A stretch of DNA of 45,866 nt, taken from assembly GCA_030019395.1 (NCBI GenBank), contig JASEES010000048.1, positions 1-45,866 of the forward strand, in the 5' to 3' direction. How positions within the stretch are numbered: the stretch's first letter is position 1; every line of letters begins with the position of its first letter. The notes under the pieces were generated by a model that ran no database searches, was not told the origin of the DNA, and was given only the letters and a program-made list of their open reading frames with translations. The position numbers and the translations under genes are program-made. This DNA comes from Methanolinea sp. Its GTDB lineage: Archaea; Halobacteriota; Methanomicrobia; Methanomicrobiales; Methanospirillaceae. Of this stretch, positions 16,552 through 45,866 are shown piece after piece.

Positions 16552-17362
16552 TCAGTCCTCCCCAAGGAGCATAATAGCGATCACAGATCCCCCATCGTCA
16601 CCCGCCCTCGTCAGTGGCCCCGGGCGTTCGTTAAGAAACACAGACGAGTCAAGCGTCACTTCATTGTGATAATCAGCCTTCTATTCCGCGGGGAATTCCT
16701 TTGCCATAATGAGCCCTATATTGCGGGGATATGATGTTTTAAACTTGACATTGACAGCAATCCCCTTCGGATCCGCTTTCGAGATCTACCCAAATAATCT
16801 AAGCGATTTCGCCAACACTGAATCCTCCTACGCACATGGTCATTAACAAACCCCCGGTTCCTGATCCCTATTGAGGTGCCGAGAAACGTCATGATCTCTT
16901 TTGGAGTCAGCAGGTCGGCGGCCCTCTTGGTTATCGTATCCCTGGGCGGACTTTTTTATCCTTCGAATCTTCGTCTCCGGCAGATCGAGATATTCGTTCT
17001 CGATCAACGAGAAAAGGAACCCTCTGAGGATGTCGACGTGATCAGCGGTGGTATTCTGTTTGCACGGCCGTCCCCTTGTACGGTGGCCTGACCGTAGCGA
17101 TTCGATGCCGAAGTAAATCGAGCCTATGGGAGGTCTTGGAAGGGTGAAATAAAATGTCGCCAGCATATGAGGGTGCAGCTGGTTTTGTTGCAACGGGGGA
17201 GTTTATTCCTGCGGTCGCCCGCTTTTCGGCAAGATATTCTCTGATAAGTTGCAGGTCTCTGTTGTTGATCTGTCCGGTCGTGAGCCCCCGGTTGATAGCG
17301 GCATCCGCATATTCAGATTTGATACAACCGAACGTCTCAGCTGTCACAGGTGTGGAAGGCAT
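16552..17362 (-). pseudogene. Decayed tyrosine recombinase (integrase) next to tRNA-Met
   Basis: Fragments of one integrase are spread over several minus-strand frames. In order they are: MPSTPVTAETFGC..KSEYADAAINRGLTTGQINNRDLQLIREYLAEKRA (17,362 downward); KQNTTADHVDILRGFLFSLIENEYLDLPETKIRRIK; AADLLTPKEIMTFLGTSIGIRNRGF; GGFSVGEIA; VNVKFKTSYPRNIGLIMAKEFPAE; and ADYHNEVTLDSSVFLNERPGPLTRAG. At least four frameshifts and one in-frame stop separate them. GGFSVGEIA corresponds to the box I Arg region, here degraded. The C-terminal HxxR and Tyr boxes are gone. Position and orientation relative to the tRNA 66 bases away are those of an element integrated at that tRNA. Confidence 0.7.
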
Positions 17363-17427
17363 ACAAAAGAGAGTTTCAGGCCACCCCCTATAAAGGGGAG
17401 CCTTGAGCATGTAACCTGGTGATCGAA

Positions 17428-17540
17428 TGCTGCGGGTGGGATCCGAACCCACGACCTCCAGATATCTCAGATGATGGGCGCTTGTGTGTCTGCTCAAAAC
17501 CCTATGAGTCTGGCGCCCTAACCAGCTAGGCCACCGCAGC
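17428..17540 (-). tRNA. tRNA-Met(CAU), elongator, with a 39-base intron
   Basis: The acceptor stem GCTGCGG/CCGCAGC, the D arm and the T arm GTGGG-TTCGGAT-CCCAC are complete. The anticodon stem CCAGA/TCTGG closes a 7-base loop CTCATAA once about 39 bases (17,464-17,502) are removed, giving anticodon CAT. Intron borders fit an archaeal bulge-helix-bulge: CTCA pairs with TGAG, flanked by 3-base bulges TAG and ATA. The intron is at the canonical 37/38 position. No 3' CCA is encoded. Splicing would need the archaeal tRNA endonuclease and RtcB; rtcB is encoded 8 kb away. Confidence 0.9.
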
Positions 17541-37888: not shown

Positions 37889-37915
37889 TAAGGGGTCACT
37901 TTCAGACTGCCCGGT

Positions 37916-37997
37916 CAATATTTAAAAACTTCCCCGCTCCATCCTCTGTCATGTGACCCCTCGGGAATTGAAGCCTTTTTCACGAAGAGGTCACATG
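37916..37997 (+). promoter_or_regulatory. TATA box and inverted repeat at the head of the replicon-like block
   Basis: AATATTTAAAAAC (37,917-37,929) is a good TATA box and predicts transcription start near 37,949. There begins an inverted repeat: CATGTGACCCCT (37,950-37,961) and AGAGGTCACATG (37,986-37,997), one mismatch in 12. A further half-site, GGGGTCAC, is at 37,892-37,899. A repressor binding here would control the downstream operon; an RNA hairpin in the leader is the alternative. Confidence 0.5.
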
Positions 37998-38000
37998 GTG

Positions 38001-38228
38001 ATGAAAAAATGTTTTCAAGACCATCGGGAACAGCCACGTGCATGTATGCAGGTGGCTCCGGACGCGGTCCCCGGCTTTTTGGCCGGTCCGCTTCCCGCAC
38101 AGAACGAAGAGACACGTCCCGCAGAGGAGACGGCACGGACAGGAGAGCGGGCTCCCCCCACTATGGCATTGTGTCGGGTTGCAATAGGGAGAGGGAACCC
38201 ATCATATCCTGCACCCGGGGAACAATGA
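38001..38228 (+). CDS. Possible small hypothetical protein
   Basis: 75 codons from ATG 38,001 (or 37,995), the first open frame after the promoter described at 37,916-37,997. The sequence (MKKCFQDHREQPRACMQVAP) then becomes Pro/Ala/Arg-rich. The ribosome-binding site is weak (AGAGG). No family recognised; it may be a leader or non-coding. Confidence 0.3.
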   Translation: MKKCFQDHREQPRACMQVAPDAVPGFLAGPLPAQNEETRPAEETARTGERAPPTMALCRVAIGRGNPSYPAPGEQ

Positions 38229-38268
38229 ATGTTCCGTCACCGGCACGCGACTGCACGGAGGCCTCCTG

Positions 38269-38415
38269 ATGGCACACGCGTGCCCCCACCTCTCCCGCGG
38301 AAAGGAGGGCAGGTGGCTGACCCTCGCGTGCAGGTCCCCCGGTCCCTGCCCGGACCGGGCGTGCCCGGCCAACCCCCGTTTCCAGGAGCCGGATCCGGAT
38401 GATGCCCGCCAGTAA
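38269..38415 (+). CDS. Small Cys-rich protein (48 residues)
   Basis: It starts MAHACPHLSRGKEGRWLTLACRSPGPCPDRACPANPRF, preceded by GGAGG at 7 bases. Four cysteines, one with the pattern CxxxxxCxxxC, suggest a small metal-binding protein. The next gene starts inside its end (overlap 17 bases), so this is the head of a tightly packed operon. Too short for ordinary gene callers. Confidence 0.6.
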   Translation: MAHACPHLSRGKEGRWLTLACRSPGPCPDRACPANPRFQEPDPDDARQ

Positions 38416-38788
38416 CCACAGGGTATCGCCGCGGCGAAAGAGGCGCTCCCGGTGCCGTGCCGCGGAATACGAGGCCCGCAGGATCCTCCGGGAGATGGAC
38501 TTCCCGGTCGTGGTCCGGTCCACGGACCCGGCGTTTCCCGCAAGCCTGATCGCCTGGTCCGCAACGGGCAGTGTCCACGTCTTCTCCGTGGTCTCGACCC
38601 GCCGGACCGTTGCAGGCGCCCCGGATGCCGCATCCCTCTTTGCCGGCGAGATCGCGGACCTGCGGGGCATCCCCCGGGCGACCGGCGGGTCGGTCAACCT
38701 CTGGATCCGCTCCGGCCACACAGCCTGGAAGCTGTACCGCGTCTTTCCCGGCGGGATAGCCGAGGCGGGGGTGCCGGATGTGGCGTGA
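38399..38788 (+). CDS. Hypothetical basic protein, possibly nuclease-like
   Basis: 129 residues with a strongly basic start (SPRRKRRSRCRAAEYEARRILREMDFPVVVRSTDPAFPASLIAWSATGSVHVFSVVSTRR). The layout, a helix with YE followed by FPVVVRSTDPAFPASLIAW and a beta-strand, recalls Holliday-resolvase or PD-(D/E)xK nucleases, but the catalytic Asp and ExK are not recognisable. The family assignment is therefore only a suggestion. It overlaps its neighbour upstream and precedes a second Cys-rich gene. Confidence 0.6.
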   Translation: MMPASNHRVSPRRKRRSRCRAAEYEARRILREMDFPVVVRSTDPAFPASLIAWSATGSVHVFSVVSTRRTVAGAPDAASLFAGEIADLRGIPRATGGSVNLWIRSGHTAWKLYRVFPGGIAEAGVPDVA

Positions 38789-38804
38789 GGGAGAGGACGG
38801 CACC

Positions 38805-38969
38805 ATGTCGGAGCGCAAGGTCTGCCCCTTCATGTCGGACCCCCGGAGGATCGTCCTCTGCCAGGGAAAAAATTGTGCCGCCGCCTGCCCTGCCCGGGCC
38901 GGGGACGGGTCGCTCTGGACGTGCGGGCTTGTCGACGGCTGCGCCGGCAGGGAAGGGGGGATGCCGTGA
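38805..38969 (+). CDS. Small Cys-rich protein (54 residues)
   Basis: It reads MSERKVCPFMSDPRRIVLCQGKNCAAACPARAGDGSLWTCGLVDGCAG. Six cysteines, including CxxxxCxxxC, suggest zinc or iron-sulfur binding. It starts at ATG 38,805 behind GGGAGAGG; ATG 38,778 inside the previous gene is the alternative. Its stop overlaps the next ATG (ATGATG context), so translation is coupled. Confidence 0.6.
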   Translation: MSERKVCPFMSDPRRIVLCQGKNCAAACPARAGDGSLWTCGLVDGCAGREGGMP

Positions 38970-39187
38970 TGCCGCTTGTCCGGATCACGTCCACTCACGA
39001 CCCGTTCCTCCTCACCTGCCCGGTCTGCGGCTGCCGCTCGTGGGACCGGCAGGGGCAGGAGTTGTCCTGCCGGGCCTGTGCTGTCCGGGTGACGCTTGCC
39101 GATGACCCCGGGACGGACCGGGTCGTCCTTGTGATCGAAGGCCCCACCCTCTCCCCCGGAGGACCCCCATGGCAGGCGGGGAGATAG
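38969..39187 (+). CDS. Small zinc-ribbon protein (72 residues)
   Basis: MPLVRITSTHDPFLLTCPVCGCRSWDRQGQELSCRACAVRVTL holds two CxxC knuckles 15-20 residues apart, a classical zinc ribbon. A short acidic strand region and a Pro-rich tail follow. The tail is encoded within the 19-base overlap with the replication gene. It may assist the replication protein, a guess from adjacency. Confidence 0.65.
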   Translation: MPLVRITSTHDPFLLTCPVCGCRSWDRQGQELSCRACAVRVTLADDPGTDRVVLVIEGPTLSPGGPPWQAGR

Positions 39188-42174
39188 CCCGTGCCCTCTC
39201 CCTCCTCTTTTCCCCCGGATCGGTCGTCGAGCTCCGGGCGATCACGGAGGAGGGAATGGCATCCGGGTACTTCGACGACCCGGTTGCGCTCCGGGAAGCG
39301 GCCGGGCCGCTGGATGCAGCCGGCACGACCGGCATCTACGTCACGCTGAACGAGGTGAACCCGGCACTCCTCTCGCGGCGGGCAAACCGCGTCAGGATGC
39401 GGCTCTCGAAAAAGGACGCGACCACGGCAGACGGCGACATCATCCGCCGCCGCTGGTTCCCCCTCGACATCGACCCCGTCCGGCCCTCGGGCATCTCCTC
39501 GACCGATGCCGAACACCGGGCAGCACTCGACCGGGCAGGCAGGATCGCCGCGTTTCTCGCGGAACGCGGGTGGCCCGCACCCATCCTCGCGGACTCCGGG
39601 AACGGGGCACACCTGCTCTACCGGATCGACCTCCCCAACGATGACGCGTCCCGGGACCTCGTGAAGAGGGCTCTTGCAGCCCTGGACACCCTGTTCTCGG
39701 ACGGCACCTGCACCGTGGACACCTCAAACGCCAACGCGGCCCGCATCTGGAAGCTCTACGGCACGACCTCGCGCAAAGGCGACCACACGCCGGACCGCCC
39801 CCACCGGAAGGCACGGATCCTCGACGCCCCGGACCACGCCGGGGTCGCCGGCCGCGGCCTCCTCGAAGCCCTCGCGGCAACTCTCCCGGCCCCGCCGGCC
39901 CGAAAAGTCAGCCCGGCCCGCGGGACCGCGATCGACCTCCGGTCCTGGCTCTCCGGGCACGGCATCGGGATTGCGGCAGAAAAGCCCTACGCGGGCGGGA
40001 CACTCTTTGTCCTGGAGGAGTGCCCCTTCTCGGATGCCCACCGGGACGGGGCGTTTGCCATCCAGTTCGGGAACGGGGCCATCCATGCCGGGTGCCACCA
40101 CGCCTCCTGCGGGGGTGGATCGCAGCGCTGGAAGGAACTCCGGGCAAAGTTCGGGCGGGGAGAAGGCCATGCCCCCGCCGTACCCCCGGCAGAACCCGTG
40201 CACGGGGACCCGGCTCCTCCTGCCGATCTCCCCGGCCACGCGGAGGCGCTCTCCCTCCTGCAGCACGGCGACCCGAAGGAGGCGATGCTCCGGGCCTTCG
40301 CGCTGGACCACGAGGGCGACGAGGTGGTGGCCGAGTGCCTCGTCATGTCGCTTGCCTCCCGGTCGGTCGCAAACACCAACGGCCTGCACGTCTCCGTGAC
40401 AGGCGAGAGCGGCAAGGGCAAGAGCCACGCCTTTGCGACCATGCTCCGCCAGGTCCCGGCCCGCTTCCGGCTGGAAGGCGCAATGAGCAACAAGGCCCTC
40501 TTCTACATCGAGGGCATGCAGCCCGGCAGCGTGATCGTGCTCGACGACCGGGCCCTCTCCGAGGAGGTCCAGGAGATCCTCAAGGCGGCGACCACGTGCT
40601 TTTCCGATCCCATCGGGTACCGGACGGTCACCAGGGACCGCAAGATGCAGGTCTGCACCATCCCGGAACGGTGCGTCTGGTGGGTCTCGAAGGTCGAGGG
40701 TGCCGGGGACGACCAGGTCCAGAACAGGATGCTCACCTGCTGGATCGATGACTCGGAGGAGCAGGACGCCCGCGTGCTGGCCCGGATCCTCGCCCGCGAC
40801 GAGGGTGTGCCGGGCCCGGGGGGAGGGGAACGGCCTGATGTCCTCGTCTGCCGGGCCATGTGGGAGATCATCGGGCAGCAGCGGTTCCACGTGGTTGTCC
40901 CCTTCGCGACCCGGATCCGGTTCCAGGCGGCGGCGAACCGGAGAAACCCGGAGATGCTGCTCGACCTCGTCAAGGCAAACACCGTCCTCCGGTTCATGCA
41001 GCGGGAACGGCAGCAGCACGGTCCCGTCTCCTGCCTGATCGCCACCATCAGGGACTTTTGGGAAGCGGCCAGGCTCTACTCCCTCCTTTCCGGGACTGCC
41101 GGCGGGCAGGAGACGAAGCTGACGAGGCGGGAGGCCGGGCTCCTCCGGGCCATCGTGCAGGGAGGGTGGCCGGAGTTCACGGTCCCGATGCTCCAGAAAG
41201 TGACCGGCTGGTCCAACGGGAACATCCACAAGATCATCCACGGGTACGTCTCGCGGGGCACGGCGCACTCCGGCCTGCTCGAGAAGTGCCCGGCGATTGC
41301 CTACTGCGACCGGACGGTGGCGACCGCCGAGGATGCCGGCGGTGTCTCGATGCAGCGGAGGATGCGGGCCTACACCTTTGACCGCGAGCTCTTCGCCGCC
41401 TGGTCTGCAGGCGGGGCGGTCTGGCTCGATGGCGGTGATGACGGGATGTCCCCTTCCCCGCCTTCCGCAGACTTCCGCAGTCCCGCGGCCTGTGCGGAAG
41501 TGTCAGGAAACGATGAAGAAGGCCCCGATTCTCAAAATAATGAATATAATAAAAGTACATATATATGTACACAGGATCACTTCCACACATGCACGGGATC
41601 ATGGGAGCCGGCAGAAGACACTGCGTGTGCACCTGCACGTGAGAGGTGTCCCGGAAGTGCGGAAGTGAAAAATTCAAAAACCGATGAACCGCCTCCGATC
41701 CCTGCCAATACGCCGGAAAATGCCCCGATTCCACTTCCCCAACCCCTTCCGCCGCCCGGGCACTGCGGAAGTCCGGGAGATCCGGCCGGCAGCCCCCCCG
41801 TCCGGATCGACGCCCGTGACTACAAGCCGCTCGTGCCACCCGCAAGGAGACCGTGCTCCGTGTGCGGTGCCCCGTGGTCGCTCTACGTCGAGAAGCTGAC
41901 CGGCGACCGGCTGCAGCGGAAGGACCGGGACGCCCGCCGGCTCTGCAGGGCCTGCTATGACCGGGCGAAAGCGTACGTCCAGGAGCACGCGGCGATCCTG
42001 CCGGGGACGTGTGACCCTTCCCGGATGGAGCCGCTTGCGTCCGGGGTGGGCCGGTGCACCGTGTGCTCGCTCGACCCGGCTTCCTACATCGACAGGACGA
42101 CCAGGACGAAGGTGTGCGAGTCCTGTTACCGGCGGCTCTCCCGGGCGACAGGTTGCGGGGAGGCAAAGGCATGA
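39169..42174 (+). CDS. Primase-polymerase/helicase replication protein with C-terminal zinc modules
   Basis: 1001 residues. Residues 1-240 form an archaeo-eukaryotic primase-like domain: WFPLDID with Asp100 and Asp102, SGNGAHLLY (His148), and VDTSNANAARIWKLYGT with Asp184. A zinc motif follows (C285PF..H291..GC309HHASC314), as in PriCT/D5 N-terminal regions. An AAA+/SF3-like helicase has Walker A TGESGKGKSH (411-420) and Walker B SVIVLDD (454-460). A winged helix is near residue 680. Residues about 755-870 are a low-complexity linker with different base composition. Two C-terminal zinc modules end the protein (CSVCGAPW..CRACYD; CTVCSLD..CESCYR). Such fusions replicate plasmids and viruses. 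The ATG follows GGAGGA. It is the centre of the integrated replicon-like block. Confidence 0.85.
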   Translation: MAGGEIARALSLLFSPGSVVELRAITEEGMASGYFDDPVALREAAGPLDAAGTTGIYVTLNEVNPALLSRRANRVRMRLSKKDATTADGDIIRRRWFPLDIDPVRPSGISSTDAEHRAALDRAGRIAAFLAERGWPAPILADSGNGAHLLYRIDLPNDDASRDLVKRALAALDTLFSDGTCTVDTSNANAARIWKLYGTTSRKGDHTPDRPHRKARILDAPDHAGVAGRGLLEALAATLPAPPARKVSPARGTAIDLRSWLSGHGIGIAAEKPYAGGTLFVLEECPFSDAHRDGAFAIQFGNGAIHAGCHHASCGGGSQRWKELRAKFGRGEGHAPAVPPAEPVHGDPAPPADLPGHAEALSLLQHGDPKEAMLRAFALDHEGDEVVAECLVMSLASRSVANTNGLHVSVTGESGKGKSHAFATMLRQVPARFRLEGAMSNKALFYIEGMQPGSVIVLDDRALSEEVQEILKAATTCFSDPIGYRTVTRDRKMQVCTIPERCVWWVSKVEGAGDDQVQNRMLTCWIDDSEEQDARVLARILARDEGVPGPGGGERPDVLVCRAMWEIIGQQRFHVVVPFATRIRFQAAANRRNPEMLLDLVKANTVLRFMQRERQQHGPVSCLIATIRDFWEAARLYSLLSGTAGGQETKLTRREAGLLRAIVQGGWPEFTVPMLQKVTGWSNGNIHKIIHGYVSRGTAHSGLLEKCPAIAYCDRTVATAEDAGGVSMQRRMRAYTFDRELFAAWSAGGAVWLDGGDDGMSPSPPSADFRSPAACAEVSGNDEEGPDSQNNEYNKSTYICTQDHFHTCTGSWEPAEDTACAPARERCPGSAEVKNSKTDEPPPIPANTPENAPIPLPQPLPPPGHCGSPGDPAGSPPVRIDARDYKPLVPPARRPCSVCGAPWSLYVEKLTGDRLQRKDRDARRLCRACYDRAKAYVQEHAAILPGTCDPSRMEPLASGVGRCTVCSLDPASYIDRTTRTKVCESCYRRLSRATGCGEAKA
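41462..41772. other. Candidate replication origin inside the primase-helicase gene
   Basis: TGCGGAAG occurs five times in about 310 bases: minus strand at 41,462-41,469 and 41,472-41,479, plus strand at 41,493, 41,658 and 41,764. A variant, CCGGAAGTG, is at 41,651. Between them lies a 42-base AT-rich stretch (41,529-41,570) ending in the perfect palindrome GTACATATATATGTAC (41,555-41,570), in a gene that is otherwise GC-rich. The copies fall in both orientations and different reading frames, so protein repetition does not explain them. Iterons flanking an AT-rich unwinding region is a standard origin layout. Confidence 0.5.
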
Positions 42175-42584
42175 TCGCCCTTTCCCGGGAGGCTCGTTCC
42201 CCGGATCAGTCCCCTGCAGGGGCGGGGGCACGGATCTTCCCTGCGACGGAGGGCCCGCTGCCGGAAACGGGGGCAGACCCGGTGGGGGGTTCCTGTTCGC
42301 CGCCGGACGGGCTGGCCCCGCCCATCCTCCTTCCCGGCCGGGGAGGCCGGCTCCGGCACACGGTGACCGCCACCCGATCCGTTGCGATGGACGGGGATGA
42401 TTCGCCGGCCTGCCCGCCGGAAAGGACGCATTCCCCCCGCCACCGGCAGGAACTCCCCGGAAAGCAACCGGCATGCCGGCGAGATACGCGGGTGTCCGGG
42501 GGGAGAGGAAGAGGGGACGGCAGCCGTGCACGACGGGAGACCGCCGTGCAACCGGGCCGGGAGGAACGGCCATGCCGGGGCTGA
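42171..42584 (+). CDS. Hypothetical low-complexity protein coupled to the replication gene
   Basis: 137 codons from ATG 42,171, which overlaps the replication gene's stop (ATGA). The product is rich in Pro, Gly and Arg (PPILLPGRGGRLRHT, RRDTRVSGGRGRGDGSRARRE), probably disordered. Coupled start and operon position support it; composition argues for caution. No family recognised. Confidence 0.4.
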   Translation: MIALSREARSPDQSPAGAGARIFPATEGPLPETGADPVGGSCSPPDGLAPPILLPGRGGRLRHTVTATRSVAMDGDDSPACPPERTHSPRHRQELPGKQPACRRDTRVSGGRGRGDGSRARRETAVQPGREERPCRG

Positions 42585-43153
42585 TCCGGGCGGTCCGGGA
42601 CCTGCTCACCCGGCTCCTGTCCCGGAGAAGGGTGTCCGGGGACACCACGGTTCCCGCAAAGGACACCACGGGATGCCCTCCTGCCACCCCACCAGAAGGC
42701 ACTGCCCCGGGGGAAGACCGGCCGTGCTCCGGGGAGTGCCTCCGGCCGGTGGTTCCCGCAAAACCCGTTCCCCTTCCCCCGGAGGGACAACCGGGGCTCT
42801 CCCGGTGGACGGTCCGGGAATCCGAAAGACCGGTGTTCGGGAAGGTGGGGCGGATCTTCCTCGAGGGCGATGCCCTGGTGATCCGCACCGACCGCGACCC
42901 CCGCTGTTTCTCCCTCCCGATCGACGGTGCAGCCGCCGTTCTCGCGGGTGATTCCCGTGCCATCCTCCTCCCGACCGGGGATGCGGTGGGAACCGCACGG
43001 CTCTCGGCATCCGGCCGGGCGGTGAACTTTCTCATCGGGCCGGTCCTCTATACCACGCCGCGGGCACGGATAACCGACGTGCTGGAGGGGAGGGCGAGGA
43101 AAGCGGCGGTGTTCGCGGGAGAGGCCCCTCCGGGGGACCGTGCAGGACAATGA
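42572..43153 (+). CDS. Hypothetical protein with beta-rich C-terminal domain
   Basis: 193 residues from ATG 42,572, behind GGGAGGA. A basic amphipathic N-terminus (MPGLIRAVRDLLTRLLSRRR) and a Pro-rich linker precede a compact beta-rich domain (VRESERPVFGKVGRIFLEGDALVIRTDRDPRCFSLPIDGAAAVLAGDSRAILL..GRAVNFLIGPVLYTTP). It overlaps the gene before by 13 bases. Unknown function; specific to this type of element as far as can be judged. Confidence 0.6.
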   Translation: MPGLIRAVRDLLTRLLSRRRVSGDTTVPAKDTTGCPPATPPEGTAPGEDRPCSGECLRPVVPAKPVPLPPEGQPGLSRWTVRESERPVFGKVGRIFLEGDALVIRTDRDPRCFSLPIDGAAAVLAGDSRAILLPTGDAVGTARLSASGRAVNFLIGPVLYTTPRARITDVLEGRARKAAVFAGEAPPGDRAGQ

Positions 43154-43286
43154 CGCACCGATCTCCCCGGATCGCCATTTCGCACCAGTTAATGCGTCCG
43201 ATGGGAAACCCCCCGTTCCCTTCTTTGCACCGGTCTTCCCACCCTTCTTTGCCCCCGGGTTTCCCGGGGGCAGGAGTATCAGCAGC

Positions 43287-43790
43287 ATGGCAGACTTTGT
43301 CCAGAAGAGTGTCACGAAGAGTGCGGTCCGCACCCTGAGTGCACCCCTCGCAGACGCAGCAGCCGTCAACACCATCGTGAACACCCTGATTGCGGCAAAC
43401 CCGCTCGGGTGCACGCCATACGAGGTCGGAGGCGTCACGATGGCCCCGGTCGCAAAGACCCGGGAGAGTTACGGCGCCCGTATCGCCTACGAAGACGACG
43501 AGGCAGCAACCGTGGGGACCATCTCCATCCGGGCACCCACGACGGCAGCCTTTGCGACCGTGAAGTCCGAGCTCCTCGCCGATGCGGAGATTTCCGCCGC
43601 GATGGGCGGCGACCCCGTGAACCTGCCCGACAGGGAGACCTGCTCGGTCACGGTCCGGTGCCACGACCCGTCCGGCGAGATCTACTACCTCACGTTCACC
43701 CGCGACGCAGTCCGGATCACCTCGTACGAGAGCGATTCGATCCTCACGCTCGTCGAGCAGTGGGCGGACACGGTGCCGGCACTGGCCTGA
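43287..43790 (+). CDS. Hypothetical protein, possibly structural
   Basis: 167 residues from ATG 43,287 with CAGGAG upstream. It reads MADFVQKSVTKSAVRTLSAPLADAAAVNTIVNTLIAANPLGCTPYEVGGVTMAPVAKTRESYGARIAY and continues with regular alternating beta-strands and Ala-rich helices to ILTLVEQWADTVPALA. The compact alpha/beta composition without signal or membrane segment would suit a virion or plasmid-maintenance protein, but I recognise no family. The preceding 130 bases are non-coding. Confidence 0.6.
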   Translation: MADFVQKSVTKSAVRTLSAPLADAAAVNTIVNTLIAANPLGCTPYEVGGVTMAPVAKTRESYGARIAYEDDEAATVGTISIRAPTTAAFATVKSELLADAEISAAMGGDPVNLPDRETCSVTVRCHDPSGEIYYLTFTRDAVRITSYESDSILTLVEQWADTVPALA

Positions 43791-43831
43791 ACGGGGAGCA
43801 CACGATTCCCCTGTCCGGGGGAGGAGGGGCC

Positions 43832-43954
43832 ATGGAAGACGGGCTCCTGTTCCTCCTCGGCATGTGCATCGGGAGCCTGATGATGCTTTTTGCCATCCTC
43901 CGGGCGATCGCCGAAATGCACAGCCGGCTGGAACAGATCCAGGGGAGGCGGTGA
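43832..43954 (+). CDS. Small single-span membrane protein (40 residues)
   Basis: MEDGLLFLLGMCIGSLMMLFAILRAIAEMHSRLEQIQGRR: one membrane helix (LLFLLGMCIGSLMMLFAIL) with a short charged helical tail. The ribosome-binding site GGGGGAGGAGG is unusually strong. It resembles the small membrane proteins of archaeal viruses and plasmids in size only. It is followed by another membrane gene. Confidence 0.65.
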   Translation: MEDGLLFLLGMCIGSLMMLFAILRAIAEMHSRLEQIQGRR

Positions 43955-44024
43955 ACACCCGTTCCCGCTTCCCTCTTTTCCCTGCAGGCCGCCTCTTTTC
44001 CCCCCGAAAAGGAGGTCTTTTCAC

Positions 44025-44453
44025 ATGGTCGATAACGAGTTGATCCAGGTTTTCGAGCTGTTCGTTGCGCTGGTGGCGGCCATTGCCGCCTACTGGCAGC
44101 ACAGGCAGAAGGGCCGGGCGGTTGAGGAGCGGGAGGAGGCCGTCGTCGAGAAGACGATTGCCGAGGCGATGCAGTGTGCGGCAGAGGCGCACCGGGACGA
44201 CGTAATCGCGTACTTCGACCCGGCCGACGACTCGGTGACAACGCCTCCCGAGGCGGTCCCGGCCCGGTCCTGGAAGATGAGCGACGAGACGAAGCGGTGG
44301 GTGCTGTCCGGGCACCCGCCGGATGAACAGGCTTCCCTGCTGAAGCAGATTGCCGAGGCAGAGGAGCAGAAGAAGATGCGGTACGTCATCTCCGTGCCGC
44401 ATGCCTTTTACGAGATCGAGTACGGGCTCGTGAAGGGAGGGGGGAGGGGGTAA
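44025..44453 (+). CDS. Hypothetical membrane-anchored coiled-coil protein
   Basis: 142 residues from ATG 44,025, 9 bases after a perfect GGAGGT. The N-terminal helix (LIQVFELFVALVAAIAAYW) is followed by a charged helix (QKGRAVEEREEAVVEKTIAEAMQCAAEAHRDDVIAYFDPADD), then a second helical part (QASLLKQIAEAEEQKKMRYVISVPHAFYEIEYGLV). Last plus-strand gene of the replicon-like block. The T-rich run at 44,513-44,525 could terminate the operon. Family unknown. Confidence 0.7.
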   Translation: MVDNELIQVFELFVALVAAIAAYWQHRQKGRAVEEREEAVVEKTIAEAMQCAAEAHRDDVIAYFDPADDSVTTPPEAVPARSWKMSDETKRWVLSGHPPDEQASLLKQIAEAEEQKKMRYVISVPHAFYEIEYGLVKGGGRG

Positions 44454-44498: not shown

Positions 44499-45206
44499 TC
44501 AAAATCCAGCATTATTTTTTTTTTTCATGGACTGGTAATCACAAATGGTCGAAAGGGGACACCTCTCGCAAGCAGGTTCCTGTCGTAGGCAGATTGTAGC
44601 AGCCAAGTCCAGGATGGCCCAGTTGACGTCCCTAGGAGCATCACATTGAACAATATCGAACGCAAGTTTTTGAAGATACGGGTCATGCCTTATGTCAGCC
44701 ATTTTTCTAGGCCCAAAAACCCTTTCCAAGACGCGAGCCATATTCCCATCGAGCAGTGGTTGGGGTTCACCGTGGCAAAATAGGAGGATGGCATTGGCAA
44801 TGTATTGTCCAACACCGGGCAGCGATTCAATATCGGGGCGGTTACGGGGAAACCTCCCGTTACGCTTCGCCATTTCAGTGGCAAGTGACTTGATTGACAA
44901 TGCCCGGCGGCGCCACAATCCTATCGGTTGTAAAAGGTCCTCTAGTTCTCCTAAATTTAACCTATCAAGTTTTTTCCAAGATGGGAACTCGCGTGTAAAC
45001 CTGGGAAAGAATTTAGCAACGGTCTCTGCCTTGGTCCTTTGCAAGAGTATCTCGGCAATAATGCACTGGTACCTGCTAACGGAAGGATTTCTCCAGGGAA
45101 ACTTTCTCCCGTTCGTTTTAAACCATTTTAACAAGTAGGACCTGCACTTTTTGATCTTCCAGGGAGGTGGATAACCATGCGAATTCGGAAGGGTCTTGTC
45201 CTTCAC
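44499..45206 (-). CDS. HhH-GPD DNA glycosylase of Mig/MutY type
   Basis: 235 residues. The N-terminal region FPWRNPSVSRYQCIIAEILLQRTKAETVAKFFPRF is close in pattern to the G/T-mismatch glycosylase Mig of Methanothermobacter and to MutY. The helix-hairpin-helix LPGVGQYIANAI carries Tyr135, and LLDGNMARVLERVFG carries the catalytic Asp153. The iron-sulfur loop Cys206-x6-Cys213-x2-Cys216-x5-Cys222 is complete. The MutY C-terminal adenine-recognition domain is absent. Mig repairs T opposite G arising from deaminated 5-methylcytosine and was found beside a restriction-modification system on plasmid pFV1. The same role is plausible here. Base composition is lower in GC than the plus-strand block beside it. 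Confidence 0.85.
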   Translation of the reverse strand: MKDKTLPNSHGYPPPWKIKKCRSYLLKWFKTNGRKFPWRNPSVSRYQCIIAEILLQRTKAETVAKFFPRFTREFPSWKKLDRLNLGELEDLLQPIGLWRRRALSIKSLATEMAKRNGRFPRNRPDIESLPGVGQYIANAILLFCHGEPQPLLDGNMARVLERVFGPRKMADIRHDPYLQKLAFDIVQCDAPRDVNWAILDLAATICLRQEPACERCPLSTICDYQSMKKKNNAGF

Positions 45207-45237
45207 GTGATTACTCTCCCGTTAATCTTGAATGCGA

Positions 45238-45866
45238 TTACCCGACCCTGTTGATAATTTTAACCTTGCCGTCTTGCTCCTCGGCAAGTCCCATGCGGAT
45301 CAACAGCTGAACGAGGTTGTTAATTGGTAACATCGTGGAATTATAGCCTTCAACCCTTGCTAATTCCTCCCTTGTAGCGCTTTCGAGATGCTGGAGATGG
45401 CTCCACACAAGGTACAATGGATAGTTCATCGTCCTTATGAGGGTTTGGGGATGGTGACGGTTATCGACAAATGCCTGGAAGCGTTCGAGTCCAGCGATGT
45501 CTCCTTCTCTTCCATCGCAACGGATTAATTGGACGATGTCCCTTATCCGGCTTGCATCTCTACCATTTCCATGGATGATTTTCGTGGCAAGCGAGGAAGA
45601 AATGTCTATCGGGAATTGACTCGGGTACTGGGATGATAACAACATGCCCACCCCGTATGCCCGGCATTGGAGAACGAAATCGGCCATCGATTCGTACTCG
45701 AGGACCCTAAAGGCCTCGTCGATGATGAATAATAGTCGAATCGTCCCCGAGTGGGGGATGGAGTTAAAATAGGAATGGGCCGACATCACGATAAGCTGGG
45801 CTAGTGCATTCTTAATTTCCTCGCTAGGTATCCTGCTCAAATCGATAACGAAAGACTTACCCGTCA
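45238..45866 (-). CDS. HerA/FtsK-type ATPase, C-terminal part (5' end outside window)
   Basis: The frame runs off the right edge, and the visible 209 residues start TGKSFVIDLSRIPSEEIKNALAQLIVMSAHSYF. Walker B is IRLLFIIDEAFRVLEYESMADFVLQCRAYGVGMLLSSQYPSQF with Asp-Glu, followed by sensor-like region SSLATKIIHGNGRDA. The C-terminal part ends in a winged-helix-like domain (LESATREELARVEGYNSTMLPINNLVQLLIRMGL). This is the HerA/VirB4-like DUF87 pattern of DNA translocases found in repair, conjugation and defence loci. The gene sits just upstream of the glycosylase gene on the same strand (31 bases). Confidence 0.8.
   Translation of the reverse strand, partial: TGKSFVIDLSRIPSEEIKNALAQLIVMSAHSYFNSIPHSGTIRLLFIIDEAFRVLEYESMADFVLQCRAYGVGMLLSSQYPSQFPIDISSSLATKIIHGNGRDASRIRDIVQLIRCDGREGDIAGLERFQAFVDNRHHPQTLIRTMNYPLYLVWSHLQHLESATREELARVEGYNSTMLPINNLVQLLIRMGLAEEQDGKVKIINRVG

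Follow-up and report, generated by a model that had tools for sequence, protein, structure and literature searches.

The stretch of DNA analyzed here, hereafter the window, comprises 45,866 nucleotides from Methanolinea sp., an archaeon of the Methanomicrobiales (assembly GCA_030019395.1, contig JASEES010000048.1, positions 1 to 45,866 of the forward strand), and raises the question of what the compact block at about 37.89–44.45 kb (ends approximate), built around the gene for a 1001-residue primase-helicase, represents. A first-pass annotation of the sequence had described it as an integrated plasmid- or virus-like element, possibly of an undescribed archaeal kind. Our results favor the first of these claims and contradict the second: the block fits a described family from the same host order, the arCOG07809 or Mpal_2033 elements, and we consider it, with a probability of roughly 0.83, to be an immobilised copy of an integrative element of this type. 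What is new here is the distribution of the family, its link to a gene named c7, and a variable slot frequently occupied by predicted defence genes. To our knowledge, few mobile elements have been recognised in methanogens, and genetic tools for these archaea are scarce.

The primase-helicase and its family

The central gene (39169–42174, plus strand) encodes a protein of the arCOG07809 type, in which an archaeo-eukaryotic primase (AEP) prim-pol domain is joined to a zinc motif, an AAA+ helicase and C-terminal zinc modules. This architecture, proposed in the annotation, was recovered from the motifs and from the fold of the primase. The AEP motifs DxD (D100/D102), SGNGAH (143–148) and the basic NAARIWKLYGT are present, and their core residues do not vary among 26 relatives; the zinc motif is formed by C285/H291/C309/C314, the Walker A sequence GESGKGKS lies at 412–419 and Walker B at D459/D460, and of the two C-terminal CxxC-CxxC modules the last (C963/C966/C983/C986) is likewise invariant in the 26 relatives. 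Residues 1–345, modelled from an alignment with relatives from IMG/VR and from genome contigs, gave a confident structure (predicted local distance difference test, pLDDT, 91.5). A structure search identified the AEP fold in residues 1–239 of this model, with matches to the PrimPol of cyanophage S-2L (6zp9; Z 16.9, root-mean-square deviation 2.5 over 175 residues) and to the RepB' primase (Z 14.1). Both share the fold with the window protein but differ in accessory domains and hosts; LigD and eukaryotic primases, also among the matches, reflect the shared AEP fold only. Structures of ORF904 from plasmid pRN1 were absent from the fold matches listed, which excludes nothing. A profile of the helicase region (356–768) aligned over 297 columns to C674 of the fusellovirus ASV1 (hhalign P 2.5e-6, probability 88.8%), as compared with a probability of 0.9% for an unrelated ASV1 helicase used as negative control. 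A winged helix is plausible, and residues about 650–690 were locally helical (pLDDT about 77–81) inside a low-confidence model of the full-length protein. Scans of the whole protein against Pfam, NCBIfam and PHROG yielded no family at a convincing score, and sequence profiles matched no solved structure in the PDB.

Small integrated elements around arCOG07809, with Mpal_2033 of Methanosphaerula palustris as type protein, were described by Makarova et al. 2014 (PMC4158269), who list for them a primase, a helicase, a helix-turn-helix and a zinc finger, with an HJR-family PD-(D/E)xK nuclease alongside; they report integrases and integration sites in several islands, not all, and no capsid genes, and put the elements forward as possible satellite viruses. 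The window protein is 42–43% identical over residues 2–992 to three copies in M. palustris (genome G078, E1-9c), all three of which (3/3) have a homologue of gene c1 upstream. Gene c1 (38399–38788, plus strand) encodes a 129-residue protein for which the family alignment indicated an Hjc, or PD-(D/E)xK, fold with a degenerate active site. One protein from the two delimited relatives described below matches Pfam Hjc (PF01870, 1e-7) and is by sequence a member of the c1 family. In c1 and its relatives the catalytic D and the lysine of the ExK motif are gone from most copies, and this replacement of catalytic residues suggests a family that binds DNA rather than cleaving it.

Combined, the full-length match in M. 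palustris, the PD-(D/E)xK companion and the C674-related helicase fit the arCOG07809 elements, and the gene order largely matches this described family, an outcome that the annotation had named as speaking against its proposal. The likeness extends to the absence of capsid genes (no PHROG structural match was found among the block proteins scanned) and, in relatives of the window copy, to integrases and integration sites. The window copy differs in having no integrase and in the degenerate active site of its PD-(D/E)xK protein, and neither the c7 module nor the defence-rich slot is mentioned in the text of PMC4158269 on these elements. In the literature searched, outside which most subscription journals lay, no further paper names arCOG07809. 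Other replicons resemble the block more remotely. C674 of fuselloviruses such as ASV1 is remotely related to the AAA+ domain but is described as a stand-alone helicase-domain relative, and tblastn with ASV1 VP1, VP2, VP3 and other proteins gave no match in the window block and three relatives. The ORF904-type replicons pRN1 and pSSVx also combine an AEP, a helicase and a predicted winged helix-turn-helix in one protein; they belong to another group, arCOG06914, which PMC4158269 calls distant.

Distribution and integration of the relatives

A single genome represented each species in the survey of the family; many of these genomes are fragmented, and all copy numbers are lower bounds. Matches were found in 128 of 199 sampled Methanomicrobiales genomes, representing 31 of 38 genera. 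The genome from which the window derives has at least three copies, and 11 of the 13 genomes of its genus have matches; across the genus the number ranges from 0 to several, the primase being absent from two near-complete genomes. Thus, strict chromosomal conservation in all relatives, which would have spoken against an element, was not observed: relatives differ in whether they have the block, in how many copies and where. A single-contig genome of 3.93 Mb (G171:C1) contains at least 12 helicase-domain matches, with nine full copies that have c7 within about 5 kb.

Integration is indicated by the homologues. A tyrosine recombinase of about 400 residues lies directly downstream of tRNA-Thr, -Leu, -Met, -Glu, -Gln or -Ser genes in relatives, including one at tRNA-Thr(GGT) on another contig (C29) of the same genome as the window, and two elements in one relative genome are bounded by repeats resembling attachment (att) sites. 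One, of 27.0 kb at tRNA-Thr(TGT), has an exact 16-bp repeat of the tRNA 3' end, and the other, of 23.9 kb at tRNA-Met, an exact 14-bp repeat; each repeat coincides exactly with the tRNA end, and the chance expectation, roughly estimated from length and positions, is about 0.001 and 0.02, respectively. These were the only repeats found at the 13 tRNAs searched, the other 11 comprising some with no adjacent integrase and some on short contigs. About 10 nt after the tRNA, beside the integrase, a GTTCAAATCC-like mimic of the T-arm was noted by eye in L051, L052, L063, L005 and L147–L152, and was not seen, also by eye, after two tRNAs lacking an integrase; it is perhaps a second core site of the recombinase. 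In viruses, the prim-pol domain alone (residues about 5–328, 29–52% identity) occurs in 51 IMG/VR contigs (L158–L208), fused there to other C-terminal parts. Neither the whole protein nor the helicase domain nor c7 found relatives when scanned against IMG/VR.

The window copy and its flanks

To the left of the block, the plus-strand segment 37553–37888 is the 3' fragment of a chromosomal glycosyltransferase gene, homologous to the C-terminus of an intact Glyco_transf_4 gene (L034:2313–3602) in a sister species, where the corresponding copy of the element (L034) has the same flank. A reading of this segment as an integrase remnant, based on its YSHVEMARKFAEV tail, was ruled out by that comparison. 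Since the flank is common to both species, the insertion is probably older than their divergence. In the block itself, neither an integrase nor a tRNA or att repeat was found; given this and the shared glycosyltransferase flank, the copy is probably immobilised. Its most likely history is that the integrase end was lost in the common ancestor, with entry by another route less likely.

The substitution pattern was examined as the ratio of nonsynonymous to synonymous changes (dN/dS), computed for window genes against L034 and for c7 against another locus of the sister genome. The ratios fall into two classes: the primase-helicase (0.30), c2 (0.28) and c1 (0.43) are selected, while c3 (0.90) and an open reading frame (ORF) at 42171–42584 (1.09) are near neutral or spurious. 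The primase-helicase of the window is still under purifying selection.

Elsewhere in the window, a decayed integrase gene with several stops (16600–17362) lies beside an intron-containing tRNA-Met that was missed by ARAGORN and has its 3' end at 17428. The region (16600–17441) is another former site, and the same tRNA-Met is occupied by the 23.9-kb element in the relative genome. The claim that the window has neither integrase nor capsid gene thus holds for the block and fails for the window as a whole, owing to this decayed integrase.

Gene c7 and the variable slot

Gene c7 (43287–43790, plus strand) encodes a 167-residue protein of no known family with a dN/dS of 0.13. Among 20 genomes that are complete or nearly so, it lies within 20 kb of 36 out of 62 primase copies, compared with 4.2 on average and never more than 14 when positions were randomised 5000 times, so that c7 is regarded as a recurrent companion of the family. 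This count overturned the idea that the c7 module consists of host genes only. Gene c7 is present in every genome of the genus that is at least 90% complete, including the two with no primase, and one copy is syntenic at a chromosomal locus in at least some of them; it is perhaps also a host gene or a gene left by decayed elements.

Between c3 and c7, comparison of the copies by a blastn jump, by alignment and with PADLOC revealed an insertion slot that is empty in the window (43119–43136). In the sister copy, which shares the chromosomal site of the window copy, the slot holds about 2 kb with an AAA_21 and DUF4276 gene pair scored as HEC-01A/B by PADLOC, and in other copies it reaches roughly 4–18 kb. 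The slot of L036 contains genes for a type IIG restriction enzyme and a RhuM-like protein; others contain ORC1/Cdc6 genes or, by inspection, IS21-like genes; and the cargo of the 27-kb element includes YprA/Druantia-E-like, MZB-domain, DpdE/DrmD-like and methyltransferase genes. Judging from similarity to defence models at a non-random set of loci, the slot would often hold predicted antiviral defence genes. In the 27-kb element, a gene for a TATA-binding protein (TBP, 3.8e-39; L052:7848–8426) stands next to the YprA-type genes.

A proposed history and its alternatives

Our preferred account of the block, an immobilised arCOG07809-type copy, can be cast as follows. In intact relatives the tyrosine recombinase, which carries a C-terminal zinc ribbon, would act at the 3' end of a tRNA gene, recombining it with the element; on the excised circle, priming and unwinding would fall to the AEP prim-pol/AAA+ helicase fusion, and the Hjc-fold DNA-binding protein and the small Cys proteins would probably assist replication. 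A TATA promoter with operator repeats would control the operon. Cargo, frequently predicted defence genes, would enter the slot that separates c3 from the c7-c12-c9 module and could repay the cost of maintaining the element. The window copy would have lost its integrase and att sites and, with an empty slot, would be passed on with the chromosome. For the family as a whole, mobility, replication and any satellite lifestyle are inferred.

Several observations weigh against this account. The other copies examined with an integrase at a tRNA gene have no att repeats within the sequence around those loci. Neither an att site nor a tRNA, nor a comparison with an empty site, defines the window copy; its ends are therefore approximate, and it is homologues that argue for a mobile origin. 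The AlphaFold2 model of all 1001 residues, built with nine close sequences, has a pLDDT of 42, and the helicase and winged-helix folds stay predictions. Purifying selection on a copy with no integrase could alternatively reflect a host role, and c7, being also chromosomal and present in primase-less genomes, may not strictly belong to the element.

Among the rival explanations, one holds the family to be satellite viruses, replicating with a primase-helicase of their own but relying on a helper virus for packaging, the window copy being a defective satellite provirus. It would accommodate the relation to fusellovirus C674, the integrase and tRNA sites of relatives, the two membrane-like proteins next to c7, the prim-pol relatives in the 51 IMG/VR contigs, and the absence of any capsid, portal or terminase family both from the window block and from the matches listed for 34 proteins of the two delimited elements. 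We nevertheless think it unlikely: the IMG/VR scans contained neither a copy of the full architecture nor c7, tblastn detected no structural or other protein of ASV1, the delimited elements, at 24–27 kb, are large for a satellite, and no helper is known. Somewhat less likely still is domestication, with the mobile role gone and the primase-helicase and c7-c12-c9 kept by the host in a cellular role, for example in repair. The lack of integrase and att sites, the dN/dS values of primase and c7, and the syntenic chromosomal c7 copy in several genomes of the genus are in line with it, but a primase that is missing from two near-complete genomes and whose copy number ranges from 0 to several is not, nor are the near-neutral c3 and small ORFs; moreover, each dN/dS comes from a single comparison, and the selection could reflect recent mobility. 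That an episomal plasmid or virus was mis-assembled into a chromosomal contig, as a composition sharply unlike the neighbouring DNA might suggest, is very improbable, given that the sister species has the same glycosyltransferase flank, that a circular-contig test revealed terminal repeats on none of the short contigs carrying a copy, and that PLSDB has no comparable full-length plasmid.

A broader reading of the preferred account, advanced tentatively and more doubtful than not, is that, of the integrative elements carrying defence genes in the Methanomicrobiales, the arCOG07809 type is the dominant one and works like bacterial phage satellites, joining a conserved replication module to a conserved c7-c12-c9 module (possibly for transfer or packaging), with a slot in between reserved for interchangeable antiviral systems. 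The family occurs in about two thirds of the sampled genomes of this order, at many tRNA sites and with at least 12 copies in the richest genome; if mobile, it could be one of the principal vehicles of antiviral defence in these archaea and might serve as a basis for developing vectors.

Other features of the block and its surroundings

The GC-rich character of the plus-strand block was evident, with 65–71% GC at 38–44 kb against 25–64% elsewhere in the window. The window copy as a whole (37890–44453) has 67% GC, and other copies or their cores 49–65%. At its start, the annotated TATA box and operator-like repeat were both found on the plus strand: a TATA-like box, TATTTAAAAA (about 37919–37928), lies within three (A)GGGGTCAC-type repeats (GGGGTCAC / GTGACCCCT / AGGTCACA) at 37891–37899, 37953–37961 and 37986–37997, which include inverted repeats I1 and I3 and whose cores are kept in L034.

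Ahead of the large gene, overlapping small genes, several of them Cys-rich, occupy 38269–39187 as annotated, all on the plus strand. Apart from c1 these are c2 (38269–38415), encoding a family-conserved Cys-containing protein of 48 residues from a cluster of 13 copies; c4 (38778–38969), encoding a Cys-rich protein of 63 residues kept in nine copies; and c13 (38969–39187), a Cys-rich ORF of 72 residues present only in the window and its closest copies, L034 and L067 (dN/dS 0.68). Downstream on the same strand, the ORF at 42171–42584 has the sister copy as the sole homologue seen and is probably spurious. It is followed by c3 (42572–43153), encoding a fast-evolving protein of 193 residues, the C-terminal half of which is conserved, from a cluster of 10 copies. 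Beyond c7, the two small membrane-like genes with strong, GGAGG-type ribosome-binding sites were as described: c12 (43832–43954, plus strand), a single-span membrane peptide of 40 residues that follows c7 in several copies, and c9 (44025–44453, plus strand), a protein of 142 residues with an N-terminal membrane span that marks the right-hand end of the block. In the window, L054, L055, L056, L059 and L129, c9 comes after c7 and c12 or c17. To the right of the element, the minus strand of 44499–45864 encodes an HhH-GPD glycosylase and a truncated ATPase-like ORF with no Pfam match, possibly a defence-type neighbourhood.

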